Of a stretch of 44,369 nt of DNA, positions 1 to 43,814 are shown piece by piece. The notes beneath the pieces were generated by a model. That model ran no database searches and was not told the DNA's origin. It saw nothing but the letters and a program-made list of their open reading frames with translations. The stretch lies in NCBI GenBank assembly GCA_021836035.1, contig JAKBJL010000001.1:1-44369 (forward strand), written 5' to 3'. The stretch comes from a bacterium. GTDB lineage: Bacteria > Patescibacteriota > Microgenomatia > JAMCZE01. The position numbers and the translations under genes were made by a program. Every line of letters starts with the position of its first letter. Positions within the stretch are counted from its first letter, which is position 1.

Positions 1-396
1 AATGTCGGCATCGGCACTACCGCCCCTGCCTCTCTTTTACACGTTGTGGGTGCTCCTGTCGGCAAAGCTTTAACTACCCTGAACTATACCGGTACCGATC
101 AGAATATTTTTGTTGCTTCCCAATCGGGACTTTTGAAATTTGCCCTTAACGGTATCGGTACTAATCCTACCGCTTCCGTTTCCGGGACTACCTCCTTTGC
201 TTCACTTCTGGTGGATAACACCACCGGAGATTTAATTACCGCCTCTTCTTCGGGGTTAACCAGATTTACGGTAACGCAAAACGGTCTGGTAAATATACCC
301 GGTTTAACCGCTTCTTCGGGAGTCTATACCGATGCTTCCAACAACCTGACCACTACCGTTCCCACTTCGGGGACTCTGGGTTTCTGGCAACGAAAC
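1..396 (+). repeat. Direct repeat A, copy 1 (about 396 bp, in frame)
   Basis: Bases 1-396 read identically to 2704-3099; the first difference is at 397/3100. The unit encodes one fibre repeat plus the segment up to a G-F-W-Q-R-N motif. Because the match begins at base 1, the real repeat may extend further upstream outside the window. Confidence 0.9.
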
Positions 397-4432: not shown

Positions 4433-4863
4433 AATTTTCAATTAATTTACCATGACGAAACTAGCAAACAAATACGATTCAGAGGAAAGAGCGGCCAGAT
4501 TCGGTGAAGAAATAATTACCTTTTGTAAAACTTCCCGGGGGGATGTGACTATCGGCACGGTAATCAACCAAATCATCCGTTCCGCAACCGGTATCAGGGC
4601 GAATCGCTGTGAAACCGGCGGGGCCGGTTCCAAAACCACTCCCAGAAATAAAAATTTTCTCCGCCGGAAGGAAGCTCGGGAAACCAAACATTGGCTAAGA
4701 GTGTTTGCCGCCTGTTACCCCGGGAAAAACGTACCCCTAGGAAACTTCTGGCCGGAAACCCGGAAATTCGTATTAATATTTCAAAAATTTCCAGCTCCCT
4801 TAAGGTTTGAAAATTGAGAGGATGAAACATTCAGTAAAAATTGAAAATTGGAAATTGAAAATT
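4433..4863. repeat. AT-rich inverted repeats flanking the four-helix-bundle gene
   Basis: AATTTTCAATT at 4433-4443 is the exact reverse complement of AATTGAAAATT at 4839-4849, which recurs at 4853-4863. The repeats bracket the small gene 4452-4817. The right-hand copies lie inside the coding N-terminus of the following giant gene, where they encode K-I-E-N-W-K-L-K-I-I. From memory, four-helix-bundle genes in such genomes often sit in similar AT-rich flanks, which suggests a small mobile or formerly mobile cassette. Confidence 0.5.
4452..4817 (+). CDS. Four helix bundle protein (23S rRNA IVP family), diverged
   Basis: This 121-aa protein has the layout of the four-helix-bundle/S23 family, normally 115-130 aa. 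Recognisable pieces are an N-terminal Y-D-S-E-E-R-A-A-R-F-G-E-E-I, a middle Q-I-I-R-S-A-T-G-I and the signature KEARETKHWLR. Family function is unknown; relatives are encoded in rRNA intervening sequences, and Avd of diversity-generating retroelements shares the fold. Here the usual second-helix motif (S-I-G-A-N-Y-C-E) is altered to G-I-R-A-N-R-C-E, and the C-terminal third is poorly conserved, so the protein may be decaying. ATG at 4452 lacks a clear Shine-Dalgarno site. Its end lies 4 bp before the ATG of the giant gene. No reverse transcriptase is present in the window. Confidence 0.75.
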   Translation: MTKLANKYDSEERAARFGEEIITFCKTSRGDVTIGTVINQIIRSATGIRANRCETGGAGSKTTPRNKNFLRRKEARETKHWLRVFAACYPGKNVPLGNFWPETRKFVLIFQKFPAPLRFEN

Positions 4864-21455: not shown

Positions 21456-22624
21456 TGTCAAGTACCCGGTTTGCTAGACAAACATTCAAGTTGTCTTTGT
21501 CCGTAACTTCGCCGGAACTTGGCTGGGGAAGTTTTTAGAGAGCGGTGAATCTTTCCTGGTTGTAGTAATTTATCGTTTGGTGAATGGCCTCAATGAGTTC
21601 TCCAACAGAGTTAAACCGGTCAAATTCCAAGCCTAAATCAGTTTTGAAATTATTAAAGAAAGATTCCTGGTAACCGTTTTCCCAGGGAGAACTCTTTTTA
21701 CTCATGGAGATTTGAATACCTAGAGACCCGGCTAGTTTTAGGTACCCCCGGCTGGCGTATTCTGCTCCCTGATCGGAGTGGATAATCTGGGGAGAATGGC
21801 CTGTATTTATCGCCGCGTCGATTAAAGCGTTACCAACTGGCTCTGTGGTGTGCTTTGCTGCTATGTCCCAACCGATAATTTCCCAGGTAAACAGATCCAT
21901 TAAAGTGGCCAGGTACCGATACTTATCTTTATATTTTGAGTAGGTAAAGTCCGAAACATACACCAGCCCCGGTCTTATCGGCCAACTATTTTTGATCAGA
22001 TTGGCAAACTTTTCCGGCGGCCGTCTTTCGTCCCGGCGTTTCCTCCATCGAGCCAGTCTTTTGTATGGTTTAACCCCGAACTTTTTCATCACCCGACGGA
22101 CAGACCGCTTTCCCACGCCTAAAGCAAGAGCGATTCGACGATGTCCATAGCTGGGATTAGCGGAAAGGACCTGGAGAATCTTTTCCCGAAGAATCTCGTC
22201 CCGGTCAAGGATCTTGTTATCCTGCCGGTACAAACCAGCCCGGGACAGACCTAAAACTGAAGCGACTAACGATCGGCTGATTCCGGCGACCTTTTCCAGG
22301 TTTAGCTCCTTAACGGCCGTTCTTTTTTTTGTTTTCTCTACCTCAAGGCTTAAAACCCCGATAATTTGTTTAAGCTGCTCGTTTTCCTTTTTTACCCGGT
22401 TATATTCCAAAAGAGAAACAGTTCCCAGAGCTTTACCTTTAAGCCAGGCATAAATTGACCGGTAGGAAACCCCATACTGTTTGGCAAGAACGATGACCGG
22501 TGTTCCGGATTTAACTTTTGCCAGAATTTCTGCCTTAACTTCTGAGGCAACATTGGTGTATTGGTCTCCTTCTAAAGATTCGTTAATTACTTGAATCTTT
22601 GTCTATTTTACCGGAGACCTGTCA
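21456..22624 (-). mobile_element. IS3-family insertion sequence (about 1169 bp)
   Basis: The ends are imperfect 35-bp inverted repeats, 21456-21490 and 22590-22624. Read inward, both start TG, share a CCGGT block and a TAGACAAA-x-ATTCAAG block, and agree at 26 of 35 positions. The transposase frame lies between them on the minus strand. No clear target duplication is visible (left flank GCTAC, right flank CTTCG). The element sits downstream of the second giant gene, next to a GCTATTT direct-repeat tract. Confidence 0.8.
21458..22596 (-). pseudogene. IS3-family transposase (fused OrfA/OrfB), C-terminus frameshifted
   Basis: The frame opens after a TAG at 22603-22605. It reads an N-terminal HTH (V-L-A-K-Q-Y-G-V-S-Y-R-S-I-Y-A-W-L), a coiled coil, an HTH_21 region (P-S-Y-G-H-R-R-I) and an rve integrase core. 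Catalytic residues, numbered from the TTG at 22410, are D154 (S-D-F-T-Y), D213 (H-S-D-Q-G) and E249, i.e. DD35E. No ATG, GTG or TTG precedes the HTH, so translation may begin at an ATT (22596 or 22587); TTG 22410 would lose the HTH. The frame stops at 21535 after E-R-F-T-A-L, but the adjacent frame continues K-T-S-P-A-K-F-R-R and stops inside the left inverted repeat at 21458, as is usual for IS3. A one-base frameshift near 21536 is therefore likely and activity is doubtful. Confidence 0.75.
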
Positions 22625-22844: not shown

Positions 22845-23408
22845 ATGGGTAAGTTACTTGCGATCAGCGAACTCATCGAATTAGCAAAATTGCGCGGCAT
22901 CGACTTCGGCCCCGGCAATCCCCGAACCCATTTGGCTTATTTAACGGAAATCGGCCTGCTCCCCCCTGCTATCCGGCGCAAATCCGCCCAGGGCGGGCTA
23001 GAAGGACATTATACTGACGAAACTTTAGGAACTCTCGAGAAAATCGAAACCCTCAAAAAACAAGGACTTAGTTACGCGGATATAACGAAGCGTCTGGGGG
23101 CTAGCGACGAGCGGCTAAAAAAAACATTTTCGCCTACTTACTCTGCTAGCCCCTTGCCCTTGACTGCCAGTCCCTATATATTCTTAATCATTGGCCTGCT
23201 CCTCGGTTTTTTACTGGGTAAAGGCGACTTTAACACTCCCGGGGTTTCTCAGGCGACGGTAACTGACAGCAAGGCCGGCGGCCTAACAGCCATTGTCGTT
23301 CCCCAGGAAGCGATCACCCCTTCCGGCGGAAGTTACCTTATTTCCCTCCCCGACGATAATTTGAAGGTTAAAAATTTATATAAAATAGAAGGAATACAAA
23401 TAAAATAA
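22845..23408 (+). CDS. MerR-like HTH protein with one transmembrane segment
   Basis: This 187-aa protein combines an N-terminal MerR-type winged helix (about residues 5-85: P-R-T-H-L-A-Y-L-T-E-I-G-L-L-P, H-Y-T-D-E-T-L-G-T-L-E-K-I) with a single hydrophobic helix (about 110-126, Y-I-F-L-I-I-G-L-L-L-G-F-L-L-G). A roughly 60-residue beta-rich tail would lie outside the cell. Ordinary MerR regulators are soluble and sense ligands through a C-terminal cytoplasmic domain; tethering to the membrane with an external tail suggests surface or envelope sensing, which is inference. It stands between the surface-protein genes and an O-antigen-ligase-like gene on the same strand and may control either. ATG 22845 has no strong Shine-Dalgarno site. 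Confidence 0.7.
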   Translation: MGKLLAISELIELAKLRGIDFGPGNPRTHLAYLTEIGLLPPAIRRKSAQGGLEGHYTDETLGTLEKIETLKKQGLSYADITKRLGASDERLKKTFSPTYSASPLPLTASPYIFLIIGLLLGFLLGKGDFNTPGVSQATVTDSKAGGLTAIVVPQEAITPSGGSYLISLPDDNLKVKNLYKIEGIQIK

Positions 23409-28521: not shown

Positions 28522-31113
28522 TTACTCGCCTTCTTTATCCCACCATTGGCTGATCCCCTTTAGAGGGTGCATCTTTAGGTGTATTTGACGTTTACCGAGA
28601 AACCAGAAAAGAAGAGCTAAAAAAGTAGCTATCGAAACCAAATAGCCCAACTTTTCGACAGGGCCTAAGGAGTATTGAAAAGTAATTTTATCGCCCGCCT
28701 GCGCTTTTGCCAAAGGAACGTACATAAAACCTGGTCCCGCCCGGTAAATCCTTGCAGTTCGGCCATTTATCAAAGCCCCCCAATTACCGTTAGTAAGCTC
28801 CCTCAATAATACCCCGCCTCCCCGGCTGCTATCTGCCTTAATCTCGATCTCCCGGCTCTCCGGGTTTGGGAACCTGGCTTCATAATTAATCTCCCTGCCG
28901 GGCTCTCCAGTTAAAGCCAAATATATATCCGTCAATAACTCAGTTTCCTGAAGATTCTTCCGCTGGTCGAGGTAATAAGGCAAATTCATCCCTGACCAGA
29001 CAACTTTCCCTCGCTGCCAATTGCCTGCGACAACTAGTGGCCGATCTTTGCTAGTTAAAAGAATCCGGCTGTTTTTCACTAAATCGCTGCCGAGTTGCAC
29101 CTTCCAGGGGCTTTCGCCTGAAGTAGTAGACCCGAAAGGGGCGCTCAGTCCCCAATCCCCTTTCAATTCTCCTGCCGTCAGTTTTTTCACCGGAAGAAAT
29201 ACCGGCAAAGGCCTATCTCCCCAAGGATTCCCCTCAATATAAACATTGCCTCCAGCAGCAAGGTATTGTTCTATAAGTTTACTTTCCGCCATCTGATCCT
29301 TAAATTTCGCTTCATATAAAATAATGAGATTAAACTTTTTCAACTCTTCTAGATTATATCCGGATAAATTCGTGCCGCCCTGTAAAGGTAACAGCTTGGA
29401 AGAATTCACATTAGCCCGCGCTAAAGCACGAAAAATAATATCAAACTGCGCTCGCCCGCCGGTAATTACGAGGGCCGTAGGAACGGTAACTACGGAAAGA
29501 ATGGGTTCGGGTTTTAAATATTCGAAAGCTTTAAAATCCCGGTTTTCTCCCAAAGATTTAATGGGGATATTCTCTGCTGAAAACTTCTGATAATCATCAG
29601 TCTGGGAAACTAAAAATTTATCCACCGCCCACCAATCAAGTAAAAAAAGAGCCTCGTTAAGGTTATTCTTTTGGTGCCAAATAGTTTGCTGAAAATAGAA
29701 ATATGCGTTGGGGTCAGTGATGCAATTGGCGCAATAGTCCCTGGTTTGCGGTAAGTGCGGGTAAAGAATATTAAACCAAACGGCAAGACGCCCATAATCG
29801 CCAGTTCCAAAGCGATACCGCGGTGTATCTTGAAGTTGCATATTCTGGAAAAGCTCACTCCTAGATAGCGGCCGTTCAAACGGGGCGCGCGACATGGGAC
29901 TGCTTAACGGAAATTGTAAAAAAAGCCAGAGCAATAAAAGTCCCATTCCCAATAGGGAGATAACATTAAGAACCAACCGCCTACTTTCTAAAATTGTGGC
30001 ATTGATAACGCCAGCCAAAATGAGAGCAAAAAAGGCTAGGAAGGGTAAAAGCCATTTCGGAAGCCAAATCCCGCCATATATCAAACCTAAAAAGGGAAAA
30101 AGCACCATAGTGTACACCGTTAATCCCCCAACCAACATTAAGATGCCTAGAATAAACTTACCCGACAGATCCTGAGGAATCTTTCTCCGCACAAAACAAA
30201 AAGCCAACAAGATCATACTAAGCAAAAAAACAGAAACCAAGACCGGCTGTAAGGTCCAGAGGTAGGGAATCTGAAAACTATAATGATCAACAATCTGATT
30301 GCCGGGTCGAATAAGGAAAAGAAGATCTCTTAAATATGCTACGTTTCCCTGCGGGGCTAGCTTTGCTGGAGCAGAAAACGGGAAACCGGGAAATCCCAGT
30401 ATTACCGGCGGTAACATTTCAAAAGCGCTTAAGAGAAAACCGGGTATTGCTACTTTGACAAAACTGCCGATAGCGTCCCACAAATTACGATCATAGATCA
30501 GGCCCCAATAGAGCAAAACCAGCAGTAAAACAAATCCCGTTAGCCCTTGGATCGCAAAAGTCAGACCGATAAAAAACACGGTAAAAAGAAAATTGTGCCG
30601 GTTATTCTTTTCTTGTAAATAACTGATAAAGGCCCAGAGCGCCAAGGAAAAGGGCGCTAGGGCAAAAAAACGTTCATAAAGTCCGCTTTCAAAACTCCAT
30701 CCCCACAAGGCCGGAGTTGCAACCAGGCACATCGCCAGAAATAACGGCAGCAGAAATTTACCGGTCAGGCGATTAATAATCAGATACAAACCGAAAGCCA
30801 GAATCCCGGCAGAAAAAACCGTCATAAAGTTAAGGGTAAATTCTGCACTTACATGAAAAAGATTAGCGAAGGAGGCCATTACGGCGTATGGAAAAACGAC
30901 GGGATACCAGGTAAAAAATGCCATGCCCCCCGCCCAAACCGGTAACCACCAGATATGCGGCCAAAACTGCTGGATTAACTTAAGTTGGAAAATGTGGACA
31001 TTAGCATCCCAACCGCGGGGATATCCCGCCCAGCCATAAATCAGATAACTAACCAGAAAGGCAAAACCAAGGAGAAGAACCAGAGAGAAAAGGTGGGAAA
31101 AAATATTTTTCAT
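28522..31113 (-). CDS. Large polytopic membrane protein, PTPS_related/GT-C-like, with extracytoplasmic domain
   Basis: This 863-aa protein has about ten hydrophobic helices in the first 400 residues, an extracytoplasmic region of about 420 residues and a last helix near 825-845. The N-terminal loop W-P-H-I-W-W-L-P-V-W-A-G-G and F-T-W-Y-P-V-V-F-P-Y resembles the '6-pyruvoyl-tetrahydropterin synthase related' membrane family (PF10131), a GT-C-like fold despite its name. Part of the soluble region (about 590-640: L-K-K-F-N-L-I-I-L-Y-E, Y-L-A-A-G-G-N-V-Y-I-E-G) looks like a class I glutamine-amidotransferase/trimerisation fold. A lipid-linked-sugar glycosyltransferase or glycan-assembly role is inferred. 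Its ATG overlaps the upstream GT2 stop by 4 bp. It is the last gene of the overlapping operon. Confidence 0.65.
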   Translation of the reverse strand: MKNIFSHLFSLVLLLGFAFLVSYLIYGWAGYPRGWDANVHIFQLKLIQQFWPHIWWLPVWAGGMAFFTWYPVVFPYAVMASFANLFHVSAEFTLNFMTVFSAGILAFGLYLIINRLTGKFLLPLFLAMCLVATPALWGWSFESGLYERFFALAPFSLALWAFISYLQEKNNRHNFLFTVFFIGLTFAIQGLTGFVLLLVLLYWGLIYDRNLWDAIGSFVKVAIPGFLLSAFEMLPPVILGFPGFPFSAPAKLAPQGNVAYLRDLLFLIRPGNQIVDHYSFQIPYLWTLQPVLVSVFLLSMILLAFCFVRRKIPQDLSGKFILGILMLVGGLTVYTMVLFPFLGLIYGGIWLPKWLLPFLAFFALILAGVINATILESRRLVLNVISLLGMGLLLLWLFLQFPLSSPMSRAPFERPLSRSELFQNMQLQDTPRYRFGTGDYGRLAVWFNILYPHLPQTRDYCANCITDPNAYFYFQQTIWHQKNNLNEALFLLDWWAVDKFLVSQTDDYQKFSAENIPIKSLGENRDFKAFEYLKPEPILSVVTVPTALVITGGRAQFDIIFRALARANVNSSKLLPLQGGTNLSGYNLEELKKFNLIILYEAKFKDQMAESKLIEQYLAAGGNVYIEGNPWGDRPLPVFLPVKKLTAGELKGDWGLSAPFGSTTSGESPWKVQLGSDLVKNSRILLTSKDRPLVVAGNWQRGKVVWSGMNLPYYLDQRKNLQETELLTDIYLALTGEPGREINYEARFPNPESREIEIKADSSRGGGVLLRELTNGNWGALINGRTARIYRAGPGFMYVPLAKAQAGDKITFQYSLGPVEKLGYLVSIATFLALLFWFLGKRQIHLKMHPLKGISQWWDKEGE

Positions 31114-31865
31114 TCTCTATTAGTTTTACCATTAGTTGTTATATGTTCCGGTAAGATAATGTGGTAAAGCCTGCGGATACGGAGAAGCTCCCGAAAAATC
31201 GCCAGCGACTTAGAAAGATTGTATTTTATCCGTGTATCGGGATTATGGGTCCAATCGGCCGGGACCTCCGCAATTTTGGCCCCCGCCCGGTGCGCCAGAA
31301 GCAAAAATTCCAAGTCAAAAAGAACGCTGTTGGTTTTTACCTTAGCAAAGGCTTTTTTCCCGATACTCGTTTTGAAAAGTTTAAAACCGCATTGGGGATC
31401 AGCTACTCCGTACGCCAGGAGAAATTTGGAAAGGGTTCCGAAAGATTTTCCCAGAAGCTCCCGGGGAAATCCCTGGCTTTGCAGGACTTTTGCTCCGTGC
31501 TTTTCCCGGGAAGCGACGCTTATATCATGGCCTTCCGTAATCGGTCCCCACAATTGATCAAAGTACCTTATGGGAACAGAAAGATCGGCATCCGTAAATA
31601 AAATATAATCCCCTTTGGCAGCTTTGACTCCGGTCCGCACCGCTGCCCCCTTACCGAGATTACAATGATGGCTAATAAGCTTAATATTCGGAGATTTTTC
31701 GGCTAACTGCCTAACCACAGCCGCGGTTTTATCTATGGAACCGTCATCAATAACTAGTATTTCATAGTTAATCTTGGCCGCTCTAAAAAATCTTCTGATT
31801 TGTTCTATCGTTCCCCCAATTCTCTCCGCTTCGTTAAATGCCGGAATGATTATAGTTAAAAGCAT
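31110..31865 (-). CDS. GT2 glycosyltransferase, polyprenyl-phosphate (DPM1/ALG5-like)
   Basis: This is a 251-aa protein if begun at ATG 31865, six codons inside the longest frame, where M-L-L-T-I-I-I-P-A-F-N-E starts the domain. It has the nucleotide-sugar motif V-I-D-D-G-S-I-D-K-T, the DXD-type T-D-A-D-L-S-V-P, and Q-C-G-F-K-L-F typical of dolichyl/undecaprenyl-phosphate glucosyl- or mannosyltransferases. No C-terminal transmembrane helices are present. It probably makes the polyprenyl-P-sugar donor used outside the membrane by the neighbouring GT-C-like proteins. It overlaps the upstream gene by 32 bp and the downstream one by 4 bp. Confidence 0.85.
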   Translation of the reverse strand: MLLTIIIPAFNEAERIGGTIEQIRRFFRAAKINYEILVIDDGSIDKTAAVVRQLAEKSPNIKLISHHCNLGKGAAVRTGVKAAKGDYILFTDADLSVPIRYFDQLWGPITEGHDISVASREKHGAKVLQSQGFPRELLGKSFGTLSKFLLAYGVADPQCGFKLFKTSIGKKAFAKVKTNSVLFDLEFLLLAHRAGAKIAEVPADWTHNPDTRIKYNLSKSLAIFRELLRIRRLYHIILPEHITTNGKTNRE

Positions 31866-33885
31866 GCCGTAGATAATATACAAAAAATATCGCAGAAAGA
31901 ATACTGACGAGAAAACTTATTAAAACATCCGTGGTGGGAGAAAAAGAAAGCTTTATTTCTGCCGCAGCGTTATGAATATTTATAAACCCGATCGGGTCCG
32001 ACTCAATCTCCAGCTGCTTTCCACTTTTATCAAAAGCCGACCAGCCCGGCTGATACGAGATTCTAACCAGGAGATCGTGGGGGTTATCCGGAGCAAAAAC
32101 CGTCATCTGCGACCAATTATTCCCCAAGGGGTAGTTGATTCTCAAAGATTCGGCACTCTCTACCCGTCCTAAATATTTTTCCAGTCTTTCTTTATCTAAA
32201 ACAATTTTACCGGATTTTAAGTTATCTGGCTGGCTAAACGTTTTAGCCCAACCCGGTTCCAAGGCCAAAGCTAAAGAGGTATTTGTTGACGGAACTTCAT
32301 AGATAATATCGCCTTCGTATTCATAAACATTTCGAAGCCAGCTGTATTTTCCCGGGTAAGTGTAATCTTTGAAGTAAACCCGGGAATCAGCGGTATTCAC
32401 GACAATATACTTAATACCCAAAGCCTGTAACCAATTAAGAGCAAGCTTCCCATCCGCTCCCTTAAGCAACTGATAGCTTATATGGGCCCACCAGGGATTT
32501 AAGCCTCCGAAATCACCGCCCTTGACCCCCCGCAGTTGGGGAACATTAGTAAAAACATTCAACCATTGCGAGTGGGTTCCCGTAGCATAGACGCGCGTCC
32601 TCGCACTATGTTCCTCTAACCAACGGGCTACCCGATACTCGCTGCTTTGAGAAATATCACTATTGGGTTTTGCCAGATTCGAGAAATTATCAATTCGGGG
32701 AAGGATAAAAATTCCGACCAGAAAAAATAATACGCCCCAGAACGCGATTCGAAGATATTTATTAATTCCCAAATCGCATTCTGTTGCTAAAAGACTGGCT
32801 AGGAAAAGCGCTGAGGAGAGATCTAGCTCGGGCCCGAAACGTTGTAGATAATCATGAGGAAGCGGAAGTAAGGAAAAATCGTAACGGTATTGTAAAAAAA
32901 TCAGGAAAAAGAAAAGCAGAGACCAAATTGCCGTGAGAACGAACGGGAAACTACGAACATTTTTTTGGATTAGATATTTAAGGGAAAAATATATGGTAAC
33001 CAAAGCCGGAAATATCACGAAAATGATAAAGACCGGGTTGCGATACATTCCCCTAACAATTCCCCCCTCCTGAGCAAAACCAATCGCCGCCTCAAGGAAA
33101 GAAGGGTTATACCAAAATAATCCCAGTCCCAAGACAAATAGGGCAACTGCGAAAGCCTGTTTGAGCGTATGGCTACCTGCTCCTCTGGCCATCTCCAGCA
33201 TCAATAAAACTAACACCATAATAACCAGCGGCATAAAAGCCGTAGAAGAAGTTAATAAAATAAACAGAAATGTCATGACACTTGAGAAAAACCAATTTTT
33301 TTGTCCCGTCTCCAGCAGCTTTTTGAAACAAAGCAAAGCTATGGGTAAAACCGCTATACCCCAGGTATGTGCCCCTTCCCCGAAGTAAATCAGAACCAGC
33401 AAGCGCCAGGGTAAAAAATTAAAACCCTGCATAAATTGGGCAATTGGAGAAATTAACAGCGTTCCTAGTGGTATAGCAGAATAAAGCAGGGCGGCAAAAA
33501 ACGCCGGTAGGTTCTTCTTGATCAGCTCTTTGGCTAAGAAGAAACAGGAAATGCTTCCCAAAGTGTAAGCTATACCTATACTTATCCGGTAAATCCCGCC
33601 GGGGTTCACCCCGGAAACAAAACTTGCCAACGCTATAGAAAACGGCACAATCGGTTGGTAGACAAGATAAAATGGAAAGCCAAAATACCAAAACGGATGC
33701 CAGATAATATGTGGGAAACTTTCTAAAATGAATTTCACGTAGGCCAAATATTGGCTTTCAATAGAAGGCATGACCGCGGTATATTCCCCCGTAAACAGCA
33801 AGCGGGTAAAAATTAGGTTCAAAACGGCAAGCAACAATACCGGCAAGCCTCCCGCTAAAATGGCTTTTATCCTGTTATTCTTCAT
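31834..33885 (-). CDS. Polytopic membrane protein, PTPS_related/GT-C-like
   Basis: This 683-aa protein has an N-terminal helix (about 10-30), a first external loop with F-P-H-I-I-W-H-P-F-W-Y-F-G-F-P-F-Y, then about ten further helices to residue 415. A soluble region of about 230 residues (N-W-L-Q-A-L-G-I-K-Y-I-V-V-N) and a final helix near 655-675 follow. The loop pattern and size match the neighbour at 28522-31113, so the two are probably distant paralogues. The likely role is sugar transfer from a polyprenyl-phosphate donor or assembly of a surface glycan, inferred from fold class and context. Its ATG overlaps the stop of the previous gene (ATGA, 33882-33885). Confidence 0.65.
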   Translation of the reverse strand: MKNNRIKAILAGGLPVLLLAVLNLIFTRLLFTGEYTAVMPSIESQYLAYVKFILESFPHIIWHPFWYFGFPFYLVYQPIVPFSIALASFVSGVNPGGIYRISIGIAYTLGSISCFFLAKELIKKNLPAFFAALLYSAIPLGTLLISPIAQFMQGFNFLPWRLLVLIYFGEGAHTWGIAVLPIALLCFKKLLETGQKNWFFSSVMTFLFILLTSSTAFMPLVIMVLVLLMLEMARGAGSHTLKQAFAVALFVLGLGLFWYNPSFLEAAIGFAQEGGIVRGMYRNPVFIIFVIFPALVTIYFSLKYLIQKNVRSFPFVLTAIWSLLFFFLIFLQYRYDFSLLPLPHDYLQRFGPELDLSSALFLASLLATECDLGINKYLRIAFWGVLFFLVGIFILPRIDNFSNLAKPNSDISQSSEYRVARWLEEHSARTRVYATGTHSQWLNVFTNVPQLRGVKGGDFGGLNPWWAHISYQLLKGADGKLALNWLQALGIKYIVVNTADSRVYFKDYTYPGKYSWLRNVYEYEGDIIYEVPSTNTSLALALEPGWAKTFSQPDNLKSGKIVLDKERLEKYLGRVESAESLRINYPLGNNWSQMTVFAPDNPHDLLVRISYQPGWSAFDKSGKQLEIESDPIGFINIHNAAAEIKLSFSPTTDVLISFLVSILSAIFFVYYLRHAFNYNHSGI

Positions 33886-35189
33886 GAGCGTAAAGATTTT
33901 CCGGTTCGGGGATAAATTTCCAGTAAAACTAACGCCGCAAGCGTTACGAAGGTCAGCAGGTCTCCGATTACGCGGGACCAGCCGTCAAAGCCGTCTTTGG
34001 CGAGCCACAAATGGCTTTTGGCGGTTTGGTCTAAACCTTGCGCCAATTCTTCTCCGGCCGGCAGCGCCGTCTTCCCGCCCATCCAGATAATCAGGGTAAT
34101 TAATACTACGGCGATAAGGAGTCCCGCCATGTTCGGCCAGGGGAAGCGGTTTTGCAGAGTATCGTTAATTTTTACCGTGGCCATCCCCGCCAAAAGCGCT
34201 AAAGCGATGCCCAGCTCCGGGTAGTAGCGCGAGGAACTGGACGAGAGAAAGCCGTGCAGGCCGGCCATGGCGATTAGAACAAAAACAATCGTCCAAAAGC
34301 TTGCCAGAAATACCGGCTGGAGGTTGGCCTTGCGGTCAAAAAGCAGGAAACCGAAAGCCCCCAGGACGGGAACGATAAAAAGCGACAGCGGAATCAGGTT
34401 CGCTAAAACCTGGCGCATTTCGCGGCCCAGCGGCCCGGAGACCATCCACCAGGCAAAGACCGGGTTATACCAAAATGCGGCCAGGGCCCCGGCGATCAGA
34501 AAAACTATCAGGAAGCGTAATAGTTTCAACCGACCGTGTCCTAAAAGCATTTCCGAAAAAGCGGCCAGCACCGCGAAAATCAAATAGGTCAGAAAGCCGA
34601 AGGGTGAAATTAAAACTATCGCCGTGCTCAAGAAGGCCGCGATTAATAAATTGTGGCGGCCGCCGAATCTTAAAAAAGCCATCAGGCTGTAAATCGCCAG
34701 GGGCATTATCCCAAGGCTTGCTATATGCGGCCCGTCATTGCCGGTAAATCCGGCTGACAACCGGCTCTTGGCAAAAAAGTATTCGGGAACAGTGGCCGTT
34801 AAAACCGCAATAATTGCCGCCAGTTTCCGGCCGGTCAAAAAGGAGATCAGGAAGTAAAAGGTTACCGGGAAAAACAGAAAGAAGAGAATCTGCACCAGCT
34901 GTACCGCATAAATAAAGGGCAGGCTGACAATGCGGGAGAGTAAGTTGGCCAGATACGGAATTGCCGGCCCGGAAAAGGGGGCAATCACCGCGGCTGTTCC
35001 CATCAGGGGAGCAGTCAGATAATAATTCAGGGCGACCAGAACAATTAGCGCAGTAAATTCGACCAGTCTCCCTCCCCATTTCCCGGGAGTAACGAGCCCC
35101 GGCAGCCTGCTTTCCCGCAGCCGCTCGCTGATCCGCCGGGCCCGTTTCGCGGCAATGGTTTCCTGAGTTTGCGGAACTATATTTTCCAT
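33882..35189 (-). CDS. Polytopic membrane protein of the glycan operon
   Basis: This is a 435-aa protein when begun at ATG 35189, which has GGAG 8 nt upstream; a longer frame to 35237 has no such signal. A basic cytoplasmic N-terminus (about 45 residues, I-A-A-K-R-A-R-R-I-S-E-R-L-R) precedes 10-11 hydrophobic helices. The external loop F-S-G-P-A-I-P-Y-L-A-N and T-G-N-D-G-P-H-I-A-S-L-G resembles GT-C/PTPS_related proteins. Unlike its neighbours it has no large soluble C-terminal domain and ends in R-T-G-K-S-L-R-S. It overlaps the genes on both sides (13 bp and 4 bp). Function is inferred from context only. Confidence 0.6.
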   Translation of the reverse strand: MENIVPQTQETIAAKRARRISERLRESRLPGLVTPGKWGGRLVEFTALIVLVALNYYLTAPLMGTAAVIAPFSGPAIPYLANLLSRIVSLPFIYAVQLVQILFFLFFPVTFYFLISFLTGRKLAAIIAVLTATVPEYFFAKSRLSAGFTGNDGPHIASLGIMPLAIYSLMAFLRFGGRHNLLIAAFLSTAIVLISPFGFLTYLIFAVLAAFSEMLLGHGRLKLLRFLIVFLIAGALAAFWYNPVFAWWMVSGPLGREMRQVLANLIPLSLFIVPVLGAFGFLLFDRKANLQPVFLASFWTIVFVLIAMAGLHGFLSSSSSRYYPELGIALALLAGMATVKINDTLQNRFPWPNMAGLLIAVVLITLIIWMGGKTALPAGEELAQGLDQTAKSHLWLAKDGFDGWSRVIGDLLTFVTLAALVLLEIYPRTGKSLRS

Positions 35190-36559
35190 AAAATATCTCC
35201 GTTTCCTTCCCAGACTTTTTGCCCGATATCCTCCCATTTTCGCAAATTTTTAAAGTCATGATAATACTCAAATGAGTCCGGGCCGCTGACGAGTACATAT
35301 GACACGCCAAGTTCCCGTAATGCTGCCAGGGTTTCTTCCGGGCCGCTTCCCTCGCGGATAAGATAAGCCGCCCGTGCCCAGCTTTTTTCTACCGCTGCCT
35401 CGTCCCTTCCTCCCCGGACCTGGTAAAAATCCGCCAGGGCGTTGGACCAAAAAACCGGCGTCCCCGAGAAAAATACCCGCCGGTCCCCGACAATTTCCTT
35501 GATCTCTCCCATTTCCGCTACCAGCTTAGTGGTTTCCCCTAAGTTCCTTATAACCCCCAACTCCCTTGTTGTAAAAGCGGATACAGCCACGGCCATAATT
35601 ATGGGGGCCAAAGCTAGCCGCCGCTTACCGATTGTTATGATCGCTAACCACACTCCGATCTCCAATTCTCCAAACCAGGCAATCCAATCCAGCCAAAAAT
35701 CCGGATCGGCCAAAAGGCGGAAAAGCGTCAGGGCGAGAAAACTAACCAGCCAAATCAGGGCAAACCTTCTTAGCCGGTCAGCTTTCTTATCCAAAAAAGC
35801 TGCTGCGGCAACCGCCAGTCCCACCGGAAGGATAGTCCGCAACCAGTTAAGCAGTTTCCCTGCCAGCACGATCATTCCTTCCCCGCCCAACGAGGAATTG
35901 CCTAAAATGGTCAGCCAAAAACCGGGGGTATACCAAACAGTAGATAGTGCAAGGGCAAGAGCAAAGACAACAAGCAAATGACGGACTGAAACAAAAGGTT
36001 CCCCGGTGGTTGCCAGAAGGGCGATTACTCCTATGAGCATTGTCGGCAGGATGCCCGTATTCGTCAGGAGCAAAAAAGTCAGAGCAACTACCGCGAGGAG
36101 CAAATTCCTTACCGAACGCCTGGCCAGGTAAAAATCCAGAGCGATTAGCCCCCAAGGAAAGAGAGCCAAGGCAAGCGCCGCCGACACCTCGTTTAAAGCA
36201 TACGCCGAGAGGTATTTCCAGGGCAGTACGAGGAAGATTACTATATAAAATAGTATCTTTCTGTCTCTGACTAGCTTCGGGTTTTGGTCAGCCAGCTTCG
36301 AAACCAAAATGCTCCAACCGATAGCAGAAAGAATAAAGCTTAAAGCTATTAGCCAATAGCTTAAAGCTAGGAACGCTTGCCCGGGAAATAACTTATGCAG
36401 TAAAACCAGAAGTATCGGCACCACCGGACCAATGAGATACTTAACCGGCGTCGTCCCCAGGTACCAGTAGGGATACAGGCCGGAGAAGCCATGGGCCGCA
36501 ATGAACCTGGTAAGCGCCAGCGTTACCGGTATTAATGATGTCGTCGGCGGATAAAACAT
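35177..36559 (-). CDS. Polytopic membrane protein, PTPS_related/GT-C-like, possibly missing the first helix
   Basis: This 460-aa protein starts at ATG 36559, 4 bp after the exosortase stop. It opens directly with the external-loop motif usually found after the first helix (P-V-T-L-A-L-T-R-F-I-A-A-H-G-F-S-G, Y-P-Y-W-Y-L-G-T-T-P-V-K-Y-L-I-G-P), so the expected N-terminal anchor is absent. About nine helices follow, and from residue 340 a soluble segment (E-E-T-L-A-A-L-R-E-L-G-V-S-Y-V-L-V-S-G). A GT-C-like glycan role is inferred from family resemblance. The start is supported by GAGGAAAAGG upstream. Confidence 0.6.
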   Translation of the reverse strand: MFYPPTTSLIPVTLALTRFIAAHGFSGLYPYWYLGTTPVKYLIGPVVPILLVLLHKLFPGQAFLALSYWLIALSFILSAIGWSILVSKLADQNPKLVRDRKILFYIVIFLVLPWKYLSAYALNEVSAALALALFPWGLIALDFYLARRSVRNLLLAVVALTFLLLTNTGILPTMLIGVIALLATTGEPFVSVRHLLVVFALALALSTVWYTPGFWLTILGNSSLGGEGMIVLAGKLLNWLRTILPVGLAVAAAAFLDKKADRLRRFALIWLVSFLALTLFRLLADPDFWLDWIAWFGELEIGVWLAIITIGKRRLALAPIIMAVAVSAFTTRELGVIRNLGETTKLVAEMGEIKEIVGDRRVFFSGTPVFWSNALADFYQVRGGRDEAAVEKSWARAAYLIREGSGPEETLAALRELGVSYVLVSGPDSFEYYHDFKNLRKWEDIGQKVWEGNGDILWKI

Positions 36560-36563
36560 CGGC

Positions 36564-37109
36564 TTATGTTCCCTTTTCCTCTAATACGTACCTATAGGCA
36601 AACCACCAAAAGCCAAAGAGCCAGATAATCGTCAGAAAAGCCGCGAGGTAGTCGTGGTAAATATAGCCGTAAATCGGGCGCAGATAAGCAAAAATCAAAA
36701 CGATCACCGAAAGCCGCGAGAGGTTGATCAGGAAGGTCCCCAGAAGCCCGATTAAAAAAACTTCCAGGACAGAGCCGATAGTATAGCGGCTGTCCCGCAA
36801 CCCGGCCAGAAGGGTAATAAAAAAAAGCAGGAGGCTCTGCCACCCTAAACAATTCCAGGTCATTTCCAGAAAAGTAGCGTTGACCATAAATCCGTTAGTG
36901 TAAGTAACAATTTTCAAAGGAAAAGGCGACAGCAGCAGGGCGACCATGCCTACTTCTATCGGGACGAGATATTTTTGCAGAGCATGGTAAAGAATAAACC
37001 GTTCCGCTAATTTTGTCAGAGCCTCGTTAAAAGTTAGCATCAACGGCAGCAAGGCCAAAAATATAGCCAGGAGCGCAAAGATTACGCTAAAAGTCTTTTT
37101 AGGCCGCAA
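36564..37109 (-). CDS. Exosortase/archaeosortase-family protein
   Basis: This 181-aa protein has five to six hydrophobic helices, matching the exosortase/archaeosortase core. The catalytic triad is visible: C87 in T-W-N-C-L-G-W, R132 in I-N-L-S-R-L-S and H152 in Y-I-Y-H-D-Y. These are membrane transpeptidase-like enzymes that process PEP-CTERM-type proteins. The start is a TTG at 37109, with GAGGAGG 10 nt upstream. It overlaps the end of the upstream gene by 11 bp, and that gene's product ends in a VPEN-TM-RRR tail that looks like its cognate substrate. Coupled translation of enzyme and substrate is likely. Family assignment is solid; the exact subtype is not known. Confidence 0.85.
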   Translation of the reverse strand: MRPKKTFSVIFALLAIFLALLPLMLTFNEALTKLAERFILYHALQKYLVPIEVGMVALLLSPFPLKIVTYTNGFMVNATFLEMTWNCLGWQSLLLFFITLLAGLRDSRYTIGSVLEVFLIGLLGTFLINLSRLSVIVLIFAYLRPIYGYIYHDYLAAFLTIIWLFGFWWFAYRYVLEEKGT

Positions 37110-40100
37110 GGGGGGTTCGCCTCCTCTCTTTCAGCCAAAGAATTGTGCCGATAAGAACCGGAGCGGCTGCCAGGAGAATGAAGCTATTTTCCGGGACGGT
37201 GATAGCCGAAGGAGGCTGAATATTACTGATATAGTTGGCAGCGGAGCCATCGTAGCCTAAATTATAGCTCCCGCCGGCACCGGCGGCGGTTCCGATGATC
37301 TCAAAATACAGACGGCAGGGCGAAGCTTCGGTACAAGTGTAGCCGGAAGTAACGCTGGCAGTCTGGGCGTGCAAACCGAGAGCAGTCGAAGGAGTATATT
37401 GGATATTACTGCTGGTTCCCAAAACCGTGTAAGTAGCTCCGGTCCCGCAAGGGTCCCCCGTCCCGCCGCTGCAATAGCCCACCACAAAATTCCAGGTAAT
37501 AGTTTTACTGCCGGTGGGTTGGAGGGCAACATAATCGTTATATGTCCAGGTCCCGGACGGAAGGGGAACCGTTCCTGTCCCGGTCGGCAGTTTTTGGGAG
37601 TACCAGTAAGCCGTTGTAGTTTTGGTTACTGTCAAGGTAGCGTTGCTTGCTCCCGACGTAGCCCCCCGCATACTTTTCCCGACATTGACCACACCGGTTG
37701 ACAAATCAAAGCCGATTTCGTCAGTAGCGCTGTTCCAGAAATAAAAATTCGTCACGGTGGAAGCATAAGTGCTGGGAGCTCCGCGGGTTAGGGAAAAAAG
37801 CGTCACCGTCAAAATAAGAACCAGGGCTAATACTGCCCTGCCTATAAAACGCCGGCCCCGGTACCTTATGGTAAAGCGGTTAAAACGGTTGTTCGCCGAA
37901 GCAAGTGCCAGATAGGAATTAACTTCATATGCCGCCGCGGGTAAAGCCGGGGTAGGGGTAGATACCCCCCGCCCGCCGAAGATCCCGGAAATCAGCCGGT
38001 AGAAACGCCCGCGGGTAAAGACGTCCGTAATCCGCCCCGTTTTCGGCGTCCGGAACCAGGGCCCTTCCCGGCTTTCCAGAAAACCTTTTACCGAAGCGTA
38101 CGCCTGAAACGGCACGACCAAATAGGAAAGGGCTATAAAGCTGGCGATACCCAGATAATCCTTTTCTTCCGATTCTTCTAGAAATAATCCCACCACATTT
38201 ACCAAGGGCAGGGAAAGCATGTTGGTTAAAACCAGGGACCATCCCCAAAGCGCCGTCCAGAAAGGCAGGCGGGCGCCGAAAACTACTTCCGAAAAAAGCC
38301 AGGATAAAGTTCCGGCCAAAAAGAAGGCCGCCTGGAGGTAGTAAGGCGCAAGATAAAAAACTTCGACCTTCTCCGGAGCCGTCAGCCTATTAGAGGCCAA
38401 AAGTTTCGCCACCATTTTGCGGATATTGTTGCTGTGCCCCTCCGCCCAGCGCATTCTTTGCCTCACCAGTCTTTGCAGGGTGGAAACGCATTCGGCCGGA
38501 GCCTGGATGTAGGGGGTATAGACCACTTTGTATCCTTTCTCATAAAGCTTCAGCGTTAACTCAAAGTCCTCGGTAATAGAGGTCCCCCAGCCGACTTCTT
38601 CGAGAGGTGCCCGCCGGATCATATAGACCGATCCGGAAATCATTTTTAGTCCGCCGTAAAGCTCGGTCCCCGCCCTTTCAATGACATAGCTGCCGGCGTA
38701 TTCGCTCCTGACCCCCCGGGTTATCCAATTCTCCGATTTGTTTAAAACGTGCCATTGATAGCCCTGGACCGCCGCTACATTAGAGCGTTGGTAATCCTCG
38801 CGCATGTTGTTTTGGACCTTAAAATACTTCAAAAAGAGGGTTAGGGTGTCCGGATACGGGACAAAATCGGCATCAAAAACGGCGATAAACTCCGTGCGCG
38901 GGTCGGTATTTTTTAAAGCCAAGCCCAAGGCGGCCCCCTTATAGCCGCTTCGGCTGGTGCGATGCAGGTGTTTAAGAACCAGACCGGGACGAACTTCTAC
39001 GCTGGACAGAGTAAAGCCGCTGCCCTCCAGGATTTGGACCCGCCCGTATTTTTCCTGGAAACGGCGGATCAGCTGCGGCGTCTCGTCGGTGGAATCATCG
39101 GCGAGCATTACTTCCAAATCCGGGTAATCTAAATTACAGGCCGCTGTGATTGCCCTTTCCACCACATTCTTTTCGTTATAAAAAGGGACCTGCACGGAAA
39201 TTTTGGGGTACTTTTCCAGGCGGACGTGTTCCAGGTTGGGCTCCAACCCCACCGGGTTCCGGCGCAGTCCTCCGTTTTGTCCCCTGTTTCTGATACCCAA
39301 GATCCAGGACAGAAAGCCGCCTCGGCCGATTAACTCATCTTCCCCCTCCGGTGCAAATCCTCCCAGGGTTTTTTGGGAAAAGGAAAGGACAATGGCTAAT
39401 GTTAAATAGTATTTAAGCGAATAGAGGAAAAAGAGGCTGCCGGTAAAAAGCGAAACAGAAGCTAAAACAAGTCCCAGGCCGGAAACAAAAGTGGCGCTTT
39501 CTAGCAGTTTGACCCAATAAATAATAGAAGCGCCGGAAGCTATAGCTATAACCAAAACCCAAATGAGGCTCCTGGTTTGCCTGCCTAGAAGAGAAATTAA
39601 AGCTTGCGGAGGGGGTGCGGGAGCGAAATTGGGAATAAACCGCTGCCAAATTTGTCCGACTTTTTCCCTGAAGGCGGGAAAGATAACCGGCTTTGGAGCT
39701 CTGCTTCCCGCTTTCTCGGCATATTGCCGGCGGTCTTCCTCCCGAGAGAGATTAGCCCGTTCCAGGGCCAGCTGCACGCCGTGATTACCGACATATCCCA
39801 GCCTGGCGGCAATTTGATGGGAAGAGAGTTCCGGCGCAGTAGCTGCCAAACCCAGGATGGCTTTGACGGCGCTTTCCCGCAATCCGCGCGGGTGCATAAC
39901 TCCCAGCGGATGTTGGTCCCCCATCGCCGGAGCCAAAGCCAAATCCTCCTGTTGGGCCGATAGGTAGCGCTTCTTCCACTTGGCAAAAGTTTTCCGCGAA
40001 ACCTTAAATTCCCGGCAAACGGCTCCGGCTTTTTTCCCGAGGATCAGCACGTCTTCGACCATCCGCTTTCGGGCATAAGCGGAAAGGCGGAGATACCCCG

Positions 40101-40512
40101 GGCACTGCCCTTCCCCCAACCCGGGGTTAATCCGGAAATTGCCGGCATAAGTGCGCCTGGCGGAAGCTAAAGTTAAGTTGCGTTTTTTTAACAACAACCA
40201 TATGCTCCGGCAGCTGAATTTTATCCCCTCTTCTTTTAGTTTGTATTCAATTTTTTGCGGACCGAATTCGGGATGGCCTACGACGATTTTTAGTATTTCA
40301 CGCTCGATATCTGCGGGCTGGCGGTATTTTATAAAATTGATCTTATCCTGTCTTTTCTGACTCTCCTCTGCCTGATTTCGGCGGTAGCTGGCGAGCCACA
40401 GGTAGAGCGTTTTCCGGGATATTCCTAATTTCGCGGCTGCCTTAGTCTTTTGTAGCTTTCCGATTGCGACCCTTTTTAATATTCCCCGTTGGCTGGAAGA
40501 AAAGGCTGGCAC
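37099..40512 (-). CDS. Fusion: tandem HTH modules + GT2 (cellulose-synthase-like) + secreted domain with VPEN sorting tail
   Basis: This 1137-aa protein starts at GTG 40512. Residues 1-115 and 140-260 are two transposase-like HTH modules (I-S-R-K-T-L-Y-L-W; F-G-P-Q-K-I-E-Y-K-L; V-S-R-K-T-F-A-K-W; L-S-S-H-Q-I-A-A-R-L). Helices at about 315-372 lead to a processive GT2 with D-D-S (472-474), D-A-D-F (547-550), T-E-D (647-649) and Q-R-M-R-W (685-689), then helices at about 718-807. R-Y-R-G-R-R-F-I-G-R and a hydrophobic stretch (884-918) resemble an internal signal peptide before S-T-Y-A-S. About 190 beta-rich residues follow, then V-P-E-N (1106-1109), a helix and K-E-R-R-R: an exosortase-type sorting signal. 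It heads the glycan operon and overlaps the exosortase. Polysaccharide synthesis plus release of a sorted surface domain is inferred. The frame is intact throughout. Confidence 0.8.
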   Translation of the reverse strand: MPAFSSSQRGILKRVAIGKLQKTKAAAKLGISRKTLYLWLASYRRNQAEESQKRQDKINFIKYRQPADIEREILKIVVGHPEFGPQKIEYKLKEEGIKFSCRSIWLLLKKRNLTLASARRTYAGNFRINPGLGEGQCPGYLRLSAYARKRMVEDVLILGKKAGAVCREFKVSRKTFAKWKKRYLSAQQEDLALAPAMGDQHPLGVMHPRGLRESAVKAILGLAATAPELSSHQIAARLGYVGNHGVQLALERANLSREEDRRQYAEKAGSRAPKPVIFPAFREKVGQIWQRFIPNFAPAPPPQALISLLGRQTRSLIWVLVIAIASGASIIYWVKLLESATFVSGLGLVLASVSLFTGSLFFLYSLKYYLTLAIVLSFSQKTLGGFAPEGEDELIGRGGFLSWILGIRNRGQNGGLRRNPVGLEPNLEHVRLEKYPKISVQVPFYNEKNVVERAITAACNLDYPDLEVMLADDSTDETPQLIRRFQEKYGRVQILEGSGFTLSSVEVRPGLVLKHLHRTSRSGYKGAALGLALKNTDPRTEFIAVFDADFVPYPDTLTLFLKYFKVQNNMREDYQRSNVAAVQGYQWHVLNKSENWITRGVRSEYAGSYVIERAGTELYGGLKMISGSVYMIRRAPLEEVGWGTSITEDFELTLKLYEKGYKVVYTPYIQAPAECVSTLQRLVRQRMRWAEGHSNNIRKMVAKLLASNRLTAPEKVEVFYLAPYYLQAAFFLAGTLSWLFSEVVFGARLPFWTALWGWSLVLTNMLSLPLVNVVGLFLEESEEKDYLGIASFIALSYLVVPFQAYASVKGFLESREGPWFRTPKTGRITDVFTRGRFYRLISGIFGGRGVSTPTPALPAAAYEVNSYLALASANNRFNRFTIRYRGRRFIGRAVLALVLILTVTLFSLTRGAPSTYASTVTNFYFWNSATDEIGFDLSTGVVNVGKSMRGATSGASNATLTVTKTTTAYWYSQKLPTGTGTVPLPSGTWTYNDYVALQPTGSKTITWNFVVGYCSGGTGDPCGTGATYTVLGTSSNIQYTPSTALGLHAQTASVTSGYTCTEASPCRLYFEIIGTAAGAGGSYNLGYDGSAANYISNIQPPSAITVPENSFILLAAAPVLIGTILWLKERRRTPLAA

Positions 40513-40519
40513 ATATTTA

Positions 40520-40547
40520 GTGTTACTTATTATGGGTACTCTGTCAA
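40520..40547 (-). promoter_or_regulatory. Promoter-like element of the fusion gene/glycan operon
   Basis: Minus strand: CTC-TTGACA (-35 at 40547-40542), then a weak TAACAC (40525-40520) after 16 bp, only 8 bp before GTG 40512. No Shine-Dalgarno site is seen, so a leaderless transcript is possible. The same element recurs at 41444-41470. Confidence 0.45.
40521..40547. repeat. 27-bp repeat, gene-proximal copy
   Basis: It begins TGTTACTTATTATGG and ends CTGTCAA (plus strand). It matches 41444-41470 at 24 of 27 positions, same orientation, 923 bp away, and overlaps the putative -35 of the fusion gene. Confidence 0.75.
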
Positions 40548-41443: not shown

Positions 41444-41470
41444 TGTTACCTATTATGGATACTATGTCAA
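41444..41470. repeat. 27-bp repeat, distal copy
   Basis: It begins TGTTACCTATTATGG and ends TATGTCAA. Compared with 40521-40547, three bases differ. On the minus strand it also contains TTGACA followed eight bases later by CATAAT, but no gene starts just downstream of it. Confidence 0.7.
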
Positions 41471-42782: not shown

Positions 42783-42925
42783 TGAAAAAAACTAAACTCA
42801 ACACCAAAAGAGCAGAATTTGTTAAAAAGATTAGAGAAAATCCGCTAATAAAGCAAAGCAATTTTCAGGAGCTTCTTAGACGAGCTGTCCAACCTTCAAG
42901 ACCTTCACCTGTGCGACTTGGCTAA
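42782..42925 (+). CDS. Small basic protein, 3' end replaced by IS insertion
   Basis: A 47-aa frame begins at ATG 42782, overlapping the preceding stop by one base. The sequence is basic and helical (K-K-T-K-L-N-T-K-R-A-E-F-V-K-K-I-R) then F-Q-E-L-L-R-R-A-V-Q-P. Its last codons and stop lie in the end of the ISXO2-like element, so the original protein was probably longer. Family unknown. Confidence 0.5.
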   Translation: MKKTKLNTKRAEFVKKIRENPLIKQSNFQELLRRAVQPSRPSPVRLG

Positions 42926-43814
42926 GTAAGTTGTTCGAACATGTCAGGTTCAAGTCGGTGGTTGTATCTCCAAGCAAACTCATCAACGTAGGATTGTAGA
43001 TACCTCTTTGAAACGTGCCTATAAACTCCATAAATGCCTCTTTTAAGGTTTGACCAGACATTCTCGGCGTTTTGGGTATGAATATCACCTACCACATAGG
43101 TTTCTTTATGGTTAACAAATTCGTGCTGATAACCATATTGGGGAAGCTGAATATACCCAGGCCATTCGTCAGTTATTACTCTGGCCTTGGGCGAGATATT
43201 TTCTTGAATCTGTTTTAAGAGTGTCCACTTGCCAACATTGGGGATATGTTTGAGATAAGCCTTGCCATTTCTTTGGATCATCCCCATAACTACCTGCTTC
43301 TCTTTTTCGTTGCCGTTCCAAACATAACGTCTGTTTTGTCCCTTACCGCCGATAAAGGTTTCGTCAACTTCTACATCACCAGTTAGCAGGTCTCCATTAT
43401 TTTCTTCCATTAAAGCTCTTATCTGTCTGAACATTCTGAGAGCGGTTTTGTAGCACACACCTAGTTCTCGCTCTAACTGCTTGGCTGATATGCCTGAGCG
43501 TGTCTTAATCATCAAGAACATGGCGTAGAACCATAAACGAAGGTCTGTAGAGCTTTTTTCAAAGATAGTACCAGATAGGGGATAAATTTGGGTTCGGCAA
43601 AACTCGCAAGAGTAAGCCGTTCTACCTTCAATCTTGTAATACTTCGTTACTTTATGGCACTTTATGCAGTCAACGCCGCCAGGATAACGCTTATTGAAAA
43701 TTTCCTCTAGGCAAGCGTCAGAGTTGGGGTATTTTCGCAAAAATGTTTTGAGGCTGATTTTATTCATAGCAGCATCATATTAGCACTAAATATACGTGTT
43801 GTCACTACCCAAGT
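42916..43814 (-). mobile_element. ISXO2-like (IS1595-family) insertion element
   Basis: The transposase gene is flanked by short inverted ends: ACTTGG-C-TA at 42916-42924 and its counterpart TA-C-CCAAGT at 43806-43814, eight of nine matching. The true ends may extend a few bases further. No clear 8-bp target duplication was found by eye. It separates a three-gene cluster of small proteins from the terminase-like remnant. Confidence 0.65.
42922..43767 (-). CDS. ISXO2-like transposase
   Basis: This 281-aa protein has an N-terminal zinc ribbon (C34-x2-C37 and C54-x2-C57), an HTH segment (G-I-S-A-K-Q-L-E-R-E-L-G-V-C-Y-K-T-A) and the DDE_Tnp_IS1595 catalytic domain. Probable catalytic residues are D135 (E-V-D-E-T-F-I-G-G), D200 (I-T-D-E-W-P-G-Y) and E235 (N-A-E-N-V-W-S). 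The C-terminal F-A-W-R-Y-N-H-R is the family hallmark. Length is normal for the family and the frame is intact, so the element could be active. ATG 43767 was chosen as it opens M-N-K-I-S-L-K-T-F-L. The gene stops inside the element end. Confidence 0.9.
   Translation of the reverse strand: MNKISLKTFLRKYPNSDACLEEIFNKRYPGGVDCIKCHKVTKYYKIEGRTAYSCEFCRTQIYPLSGTIFEKSSTDLRLWFYAMFLMIKTRSGISAKQLERELGVCYKTALRMFRQIRALMEENNGDLLTGDVEVDETFIGGKGQNRRYVWNGNEKEKQVVMGMIQRNGKAYLKHIPNVGKWTLLKQIQENISPKARVITDEWPGYIQLPQYGYQHEFVNHKETYVVGDIHTQNAENVWSNLKRGIYGVYRHVSKRYLQSYVDEFAWRYNHRLEPDMFEQLT

Follow-up and report, generated by a model that had tools for sequence, protein, structure and literature searches.

In PutA, a proline dehydrogenase with a DNA-binding autorepressor head, a single chain is both an enzyme and a repressor acting on the gene that encodes it. 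Membrane-integrated one-component regulators of the ToxR/CadC type consist of a cytoplasmic DNA-binding head, a transmembrane (TM) segment and an extracytoplasmic domain (PMC5430869, PMC7888679). In the PEP-CTERM/exosortase (EpsH) system described by Haft and colleagues in 2006, the target genes carry a conserved upstream DNA motif and sigma-54-type promoters, and the regulator of the classic system is a separate two-component pair, PrsK/PrsR (PMC1569441). Here we describe a gene from a contig of the Patescibacteria (class Microgenomatia; JAKBJL010000001.1, 44,369 nucleotides (nt), the whole of which is hereafter called the window), in which a helix-turn-helix (HTH) head, a glycosyltransferase family 2 (GT2) synthase and an exported surface domain with a C-terminal sorting signal are fused in a single polypeptide. 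Patescibacteria have tiny genomes and are mostly uncultured, and a role in host contact is attributed to their surface proteins; to our knowledge, gene regulation in these organisms is mostly uncharted. From the sequence comparisons below, we consider it likely that the protein is a membrane-tethered, transposase-derived regulator built into the surface-glycan synthase and surface protein that it controls, and that it probably acts as an autorepressor.

Like the ToxR/CadC regulators, the fusion protein carries a head, a TM segment and an extracytoplasmic domain in one polypeptide, and it would likewise act from the membrane. Its head, however, is of the IS481-transposase type, a homeodomain/transposase-like HTH rather than the OmpR-type winged helix of those regulators, so it is not a member of that family; it is at the same time a GT2 synthase and a surface protein with a sorting signal, and the sites in its own genome were found only at its own gene. 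With PutA it would share the plan of an enzyme regulating its own gene, whereas PutA has a ribbon-helix-helix head, is a peripheral membrane protein responding to redox state, and possesses neither a GT2 nor a surface domain. The PEP-CTERM/exosortase system offers a C-terminal motif-TM-basic signal, an exosortase, nearby polysaccharide genes and a conserved motif upstream of its targets, all of which are found here too, but the sorting motif is PE-x instead of PEP, the promoter is sigma-70-like, and the regulator is seemingly built into the target. Finally, BcsA/CelA, PgaC and hyaluronan synthase have in common with the fusion protein the D, DxD, TED and QxxRW motifs, flanking TM helices and a gating-loop-like segment (PWFRTPKTG here), and they differ from it in lacking the extra head and the exported tail. 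Each part thus has a precedent, while the combination, and a surface protein carrying its own regulator, appear to be undescribed in the open-licence literature, where we found no paper that brings exosortase, glycosyltransferase and Patescibacteria together, or that pairs exosortase with either Woesebacteria or Microgenomates.

The fusion gene is a single uninterrupted frame on the minus strand (Table 1); the plus-strand reading of the same interval is full of stops. An earlier note on this DNA, made from its letters alone, had described an intact frame of 1137 amino acids (aa) with three fused parts, and this is borne out, with neither a frameshift nor a stop between the parts. The DNA-binding modules that it placed in residues 1-260 are also recovered, as HTH family matches and the AlphaFold model both delimit a clear DNA-binding-type domain within residues 1-270. 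The N-terminal part only of the NCBIfam IS481 transposase model (NF033577) matches residues 10-115 (E 1e-22), with 81 bits, below the whole-protein cut-off of 224. The Pfam families HTH_23, HTH_28 and HTH_Tnp_1 match residues ~144-190 (E down to 1e-8), and all three were matched by each of the 30 heads scanned (30/30). AlphaFold places small HTH-like helical units in residues 6-271, with a mean predicted local distance difference test score of 89, and the composition of the head is basic (56 K+R versus 25 D+E). The rve/DDE catalytic domain of IS481 transposases found no match in the fusion protein in the Pfam scan; the remainder is GT2 and surface domain.

The Pfam GT2 match covers residues 436-757 (E 4e-19). 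The motifs DDS, DAD, TED and QRMRW are kept in relatives, the fold is similar to those of BcsA (Foldseek E 2e-12) and hyaluronan synthase, and the features of a processive synthase (D, DxD, TED, QxxRW, GT-A fold and TM helices) are all present, which is consistent with glycan synthesis by this domain. Its scores lie far under the cut-offs of every named equivalog in NCBIfam, including that of the UDP-forming cellulose synthase CelA (81.8 versus 699 bits), and the Pfam scan gave no PilZ match in the fusion protein. Beyond the synthase, the C-terminal domain is rich in S, T, N and G (46%); in the window protein nothing was found for it in Pfam, and AlphaFold is not confident there. It is preceded by the signal-peptide-like segment that the earlier note had recognized. 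That note had put the cut after S-T-Y-A-S; a cut after T-Y-A, at residue 917, would be more likely, in line with the ends of this segment in relatives (LALA/S, TAQA/N and SYA/S).

At its other end the domain has the C-terminal motif, TM helix and basic cluster of an exosortase target, and a cognate exosortase gene lies next to the fusion gene. No curated PEP-CTERM or sorting-signal model matched in Pfam or among the NCBIfam matches listed, the motif being PE-x and not PEP. The adjacent gene product matches TIGR04178 with 29.3 bits, over the curated cut-off of 23, and its Cys-Arg-His catalytic residues (C87, R132 and H152) are invariant in six relatives. We infer that the protein is cleaved twice, by signal peptidase and by this exosortase.

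Fusion relatives were retrieved by an alignment scan of genome contigs, a scan with the single protein having given nothing. The core profile (HTH-GT2) was matched in 22 of the 279 sampled genera of the same class (E≤1e-30), some of them represented by contig-end fragments only. HTH and GT2 stand in one frame in assemblies of Woesebacteria, Curtissbacteria, Gottesmanbacteria, Chisholmbacteria, Daviesbacteria and Levybacteria and in one Nealsonbacteria bin, with a complete chromosome among the carriers (L067, CP011214.1), and the fusion is also found outside the class in the same phylum (genomes G385, G438 and G463). Homologues thus mostly keep the parts in one frame rather than as separate genes. 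Across the aligned core the relatives are 41-53% identical to the window protein, and an exosortase gene usually adjoins the fusion gene where the contig extends far enough. Their exported tails range from ~190 aa in the window to >2,600 aa, and complete tails usually end in PE-x, a TM helix and basic residues (VPEN, VPEI, VPEK, IPER, TPEN, VPES).

Comparison of the 75-base stretches in front of 38 head genes revealed a shared block consisting of TTGACA, 3-4 bases and a degenerate dyad near GTTnCCATnAATGGTAAC, whose right end runs into TAACAN. Written as TTGACA-N3-4-GTTnCCATnAATGGTAACA, the motif common to the head genes reads as a promoter whose -35/-10 spacer is taken up by the dyad. It is present at 31 of the 38 genes (25 by pattern and 6 by eye), with a -35/-10 spacing of 16-19 nt (mode 17), and palindromic symmetry is greater in the averaged motif than after permutation of its columns (p = 0.004). 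For the window, where the boxes were assigned by conservation, 7 nt separate the -10 box TAACAC from the GTG start codon, a leaderless arrangement; in 8 of the 31 motif-bearing genes, the window's included, this distance is 6-7 nt, as expected for leaderless transcripts. Within the window's own genome (1.06 Mb), the 27-bp motif occurs with ≤3 mismatches only at 40521-40547 and 41444-41470, both upstream of the fusion gene. A brute-force search for the best upstream palindromes returned mostly A/T noise, and direct repeats were rejected as a general feature, being strong only in a few members; it is the promoter-spacer dyad that is general.

A sequence-only operator profile was then made from 16 training instances, with the window excluded. 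Run on 583 kb of 50 loci (E up to 5), it gave 33 matches, 29 of which directly precede a head gene (13 held out from training, window included); the other four are three second sites further upstream (L065, L080 and the window) and a known site read on the opposite strand. The 11 HTH-less loci from Chloroflexota, archaea and a contig labelled Terriglobia (L094) had no profile matches. In 374 whole genomes of the class there were 23 matches at E≤0.01, and 22 of these precede head genes, including 10 that had been held out. The remaining match, in G359 (L126), has no head gene near it and was taken as chance.

In these sequences the motif follows the head rather than the synthase, because three loci keep it without a GT2 fusion. 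L143 (genome G174) encodes a 493-aa protein of head, TM segment and exported part, and L142 (G099) a protein of 2504 aa that combines two HTH modules and TM helices with a giant exported part; GT2 is absent from both, and both have the motif upstream. At L202 (G179), the head stands alone as a 160-aa gene, overlapping the beginning of a surface-protein gene, and has TTGACACCTGTCGTCCATGTGATGTTAACA upstream. Moreover, head and operator diverge together (Mantel r 0.50, with 0 of 5000 permutations as high). For the head, the earlier note had proposed either regulation from the membrane or a domesticated scaffold; given that the conserved operator accompanies the head and not the GT2, the former is favoured.

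On the reading proposed here, the head, with its two bipartite IS481-transposase-type modules, would stay in the cytoplasm and bind the dyad between -35 and -10 of its own promoter. Repression is the most likely outcome, as the dyad takes up the spacer and extends into the -10 box: once enough synthase is in the membrane, its own gene would be turned down. The GT2 would meanwhile polymerise a glycan and extrude it, and the C-terminal domain would be exported; signal peptidase would probably release it after residue 917, and the adjacent exosortase would process it at VPEN. Head and synthase would then be left in the membrane, with the processed surface domain outside.

Several observations weigh against this proposal. 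When the head alone was submitted to Foldseek, there was no significant PDB match, the best being paired-domain/DNA and Tc3/DNA complexes (E 0.4-0.9). The averaged dyad, at the p = 0.004 given above, is only moderately palindromic; the window's two sites score low with the profile (12.3 and 14.0 bits); a few head genes have no motif; and a subclade of heads (L033 and L072) has a different conserved upstream block, TCTGGGTCCCGGGTTTTRTTTACA. The joint divergence of head and operator, together with this subclade block, fits co-evolution, but the correlation is confounded by phylogeny, and shared ancestry could produce both. The promoter may likewise be common to these homologous genes by descent, and another regulator could bind the site. 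An inherited family promoter that the head does not bind, with the head as a domesticated scaffold for protein contacts, would account for the good -35 and the plausible -10 box, and a common promoter is indeed expected among homologous members. Nevertheless, conservation is seen in the spacer itself and not in the remainder of the upstream region, the profile matches almost nowhere else in the 374 genomes, and the motif stays with the head where GT2 is absent and where the head is a gene by itself, yet is missing at HTH-less GT2 loci, which makes this explanation quite unlikely.

If the head does bind the operator, it might instead activate, or tether the gene to the membrane for insertion of the long membrane and surface protein during transcription (transertion). 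Membrane-integrated regulators such as CadC do activate (PMC5430869), and the two sites 923 bp apart in the window, like the second upstream sites in L065 and L080, could allow looping or tethering. A dyad within the spacer, overlapping -10 at a normal 16-19-nt spacing, is however in a usual place of a repressor site, and most members have a single site; we therefore regard activation or tethering as rather improbable. That the fusion itself arose in assembly or annotation, when a fragment of a transposase was put together with a GT2 gene, was rejected as highly implausible. The assemblies are draft metagenomes, and the parts lie in different frames in L025, L088 and L090, but the same unbroken order recurs in many independent assemblies, the complete chromosome among them, with cores 41-53% identical to that of the window. 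The reading that we retain is that of a membrane-tethered regulator, probably an autorepressor.

The GT2 also has relatives outside the Patescibacteria, in Chloroflexota (L092, L093, L095-L098, L103) and Terraquivivens-type archaea (L099, L100, L102), with 42-57% identity in the best segments. None of these has an HTH head, and an exosortase gene lies near most of their loci. L092, L099 and L102 resemble the window protein in their GT2 core (42-46% identical in the best segments), exported C-terminal domain, VPEN or IPEN-TM-basic tail and neighbouring exosortase; they differ in having neither HTH head nor operator. The three-part novelty claimed earlier accordingly stands for the HTH-GT2-surface fusion, which appears to be undescribed, but not for GT2 with a surface domain and sorting signal, which these headless proteins have too. 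In a tree of GT2 domains, built without an outgroup, the Patescibacteria sequences group together (95/79), separate from the Chloroflexota, archaeal and L094 relatives. Six Patescibacteria-side GT2s in the tree are without HTH: L085, L081, L089 and L077 are cut at the contig 5′ end, and L088 and L090 are split into adjacent frames, so that no clear case of secondary loss of the head is seen among these rows. GT2-surface fusions with an exosortase occur without the head in Chloroflexota and some archaea and group apart in the tree, which suggests that the HTH head was added in the Patescibacteria, to an older GT2-surface-sorting protein; this is the probable order of events. At L094:641-3697, a member of the same GT2 family has an N-terminal response-regulator receiver domain where the head would be.

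Other members of the family show variations of their own. At L025:8106-8154 (G024) the frame shifts within the signal-like segment, leaving synthase and surface part in two overlapping frames, by error or real fission, and at L034:1958-1960 an in-frame TAG separates two exported-domain parts that otherwise read on. The TCTGGGTCCCGGGTTTTRTTTACA block, which precedes the L033:4105 and L072:5438 head genes, is possibly a second operator type. Multiple head genes per genome, often at contig ends, are found in G049 (L028, L030 and L033), G179, G323 and G369; these paralogues seem to differ in their exported part, which suggests a multi-copy surface repertoire. A small HTH-TM protein adjoins a head gene at L033:3483-3974.

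Table 1. Features of the fusion locus in the window (residues are those of the fusion protein unless stated otherwise)
Feature	Position	Strand	Residues	Remarks
Fusion gene, HTH-HTH-TM-GT2-TM-signal-like segment-surface domain-sorting signal	37099..40512	-	1-1137	1137 aa (1137 codons); GTG start at 40512
HTH module 1, bipartite, IS481-type	40135..40497	-	6-126	NCBIfam, AlphaFold, family scan of heads
HTH module 2, bipartite	39700..40080	-	145-271	Pfam, AlphaFold, family scan of heads
Two predicted TM helices ahead of GT2	39367..39606	-	303-382	
GT2 catalytic domain	38413..39219	-	432-700	DDS, DAD, TED, QRMRW
Membrane/interface helices and PWFRTPKTG	38023..38379	-	712-830	Position of the BcsA gating loop; putative gating-loop role
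Signal-peptide-like segment	37762..37866	-	883-917	Basic n-region, hydrophobic helix, T-Y-A end; predicted cleavage
Surface domain	37198..37761	-	918-1105	No Pfam match; differs among relatives
VPEN-TM-RRR sorting signal	37102..37197	-	1106-1137	VPEN at 1106-1109
Promoter/putative operator of fusion gene	40520..40547	-		-35 TTGACA (40547-40542), 16-nt spacer in dyad GTACCCATAATAAGTAAC, -10 TAACAC (40525-40520)
Second copy of 27-bp motif	41444..41470	-		923 bp further upstream of first copy
Exosortase/archaeosortase family protein	36564..37109	-		Overlaps fusion-gene stop codon; own residues C87, R132, H152
Three polytopic membrane proteins and second GT2	31110..36559	-		460, 451 and 683 aa; GT2 of 257 aa; downstream of exosortase

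Elsewhere in the window, a second, unrelated membrane-tethered HTH is found in a 187-aa protein (22845-23405, plus strand); this HTH is of the MerR type, and the protein also has one TM helix and an exported stretch. Two giant tandem paralogues of 2507 and 2906 aa (4807-12327 and 12669-21386, plus strand) contain seven Laminin_G_3 stretches each and are nearly identical in their N-terminal exported part; beside them lies a 1453-aa frame with a Peptidase_S74 (endosialidase chaperone) domain (46-4404, plus strand). Transposases flank the region, one at either side: an rve-type (IS3/IS481-like) at 21538-22410 and an IS1595-type at 42922-43767, both on the minus strand.

Taken together, in the fusion family one polypeptide would regulate, make and anchor a surface structure. 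The family offers a short, defined DNA site that is testable in vitro, and the naturally split versions serve as controls for what would be an exaptation of transposase DNA-binding modules as heads of membrane proteins. We lean somewhat towards the view that these genes form a new class of Patescibacteria surface proteins, in which transposase-derived heads are joined across the membrane to glycan synthases, to giant exported domains or to both, and in which each gene would have a dedicated operator through which the protein reports its own membrane amount to its own gene.

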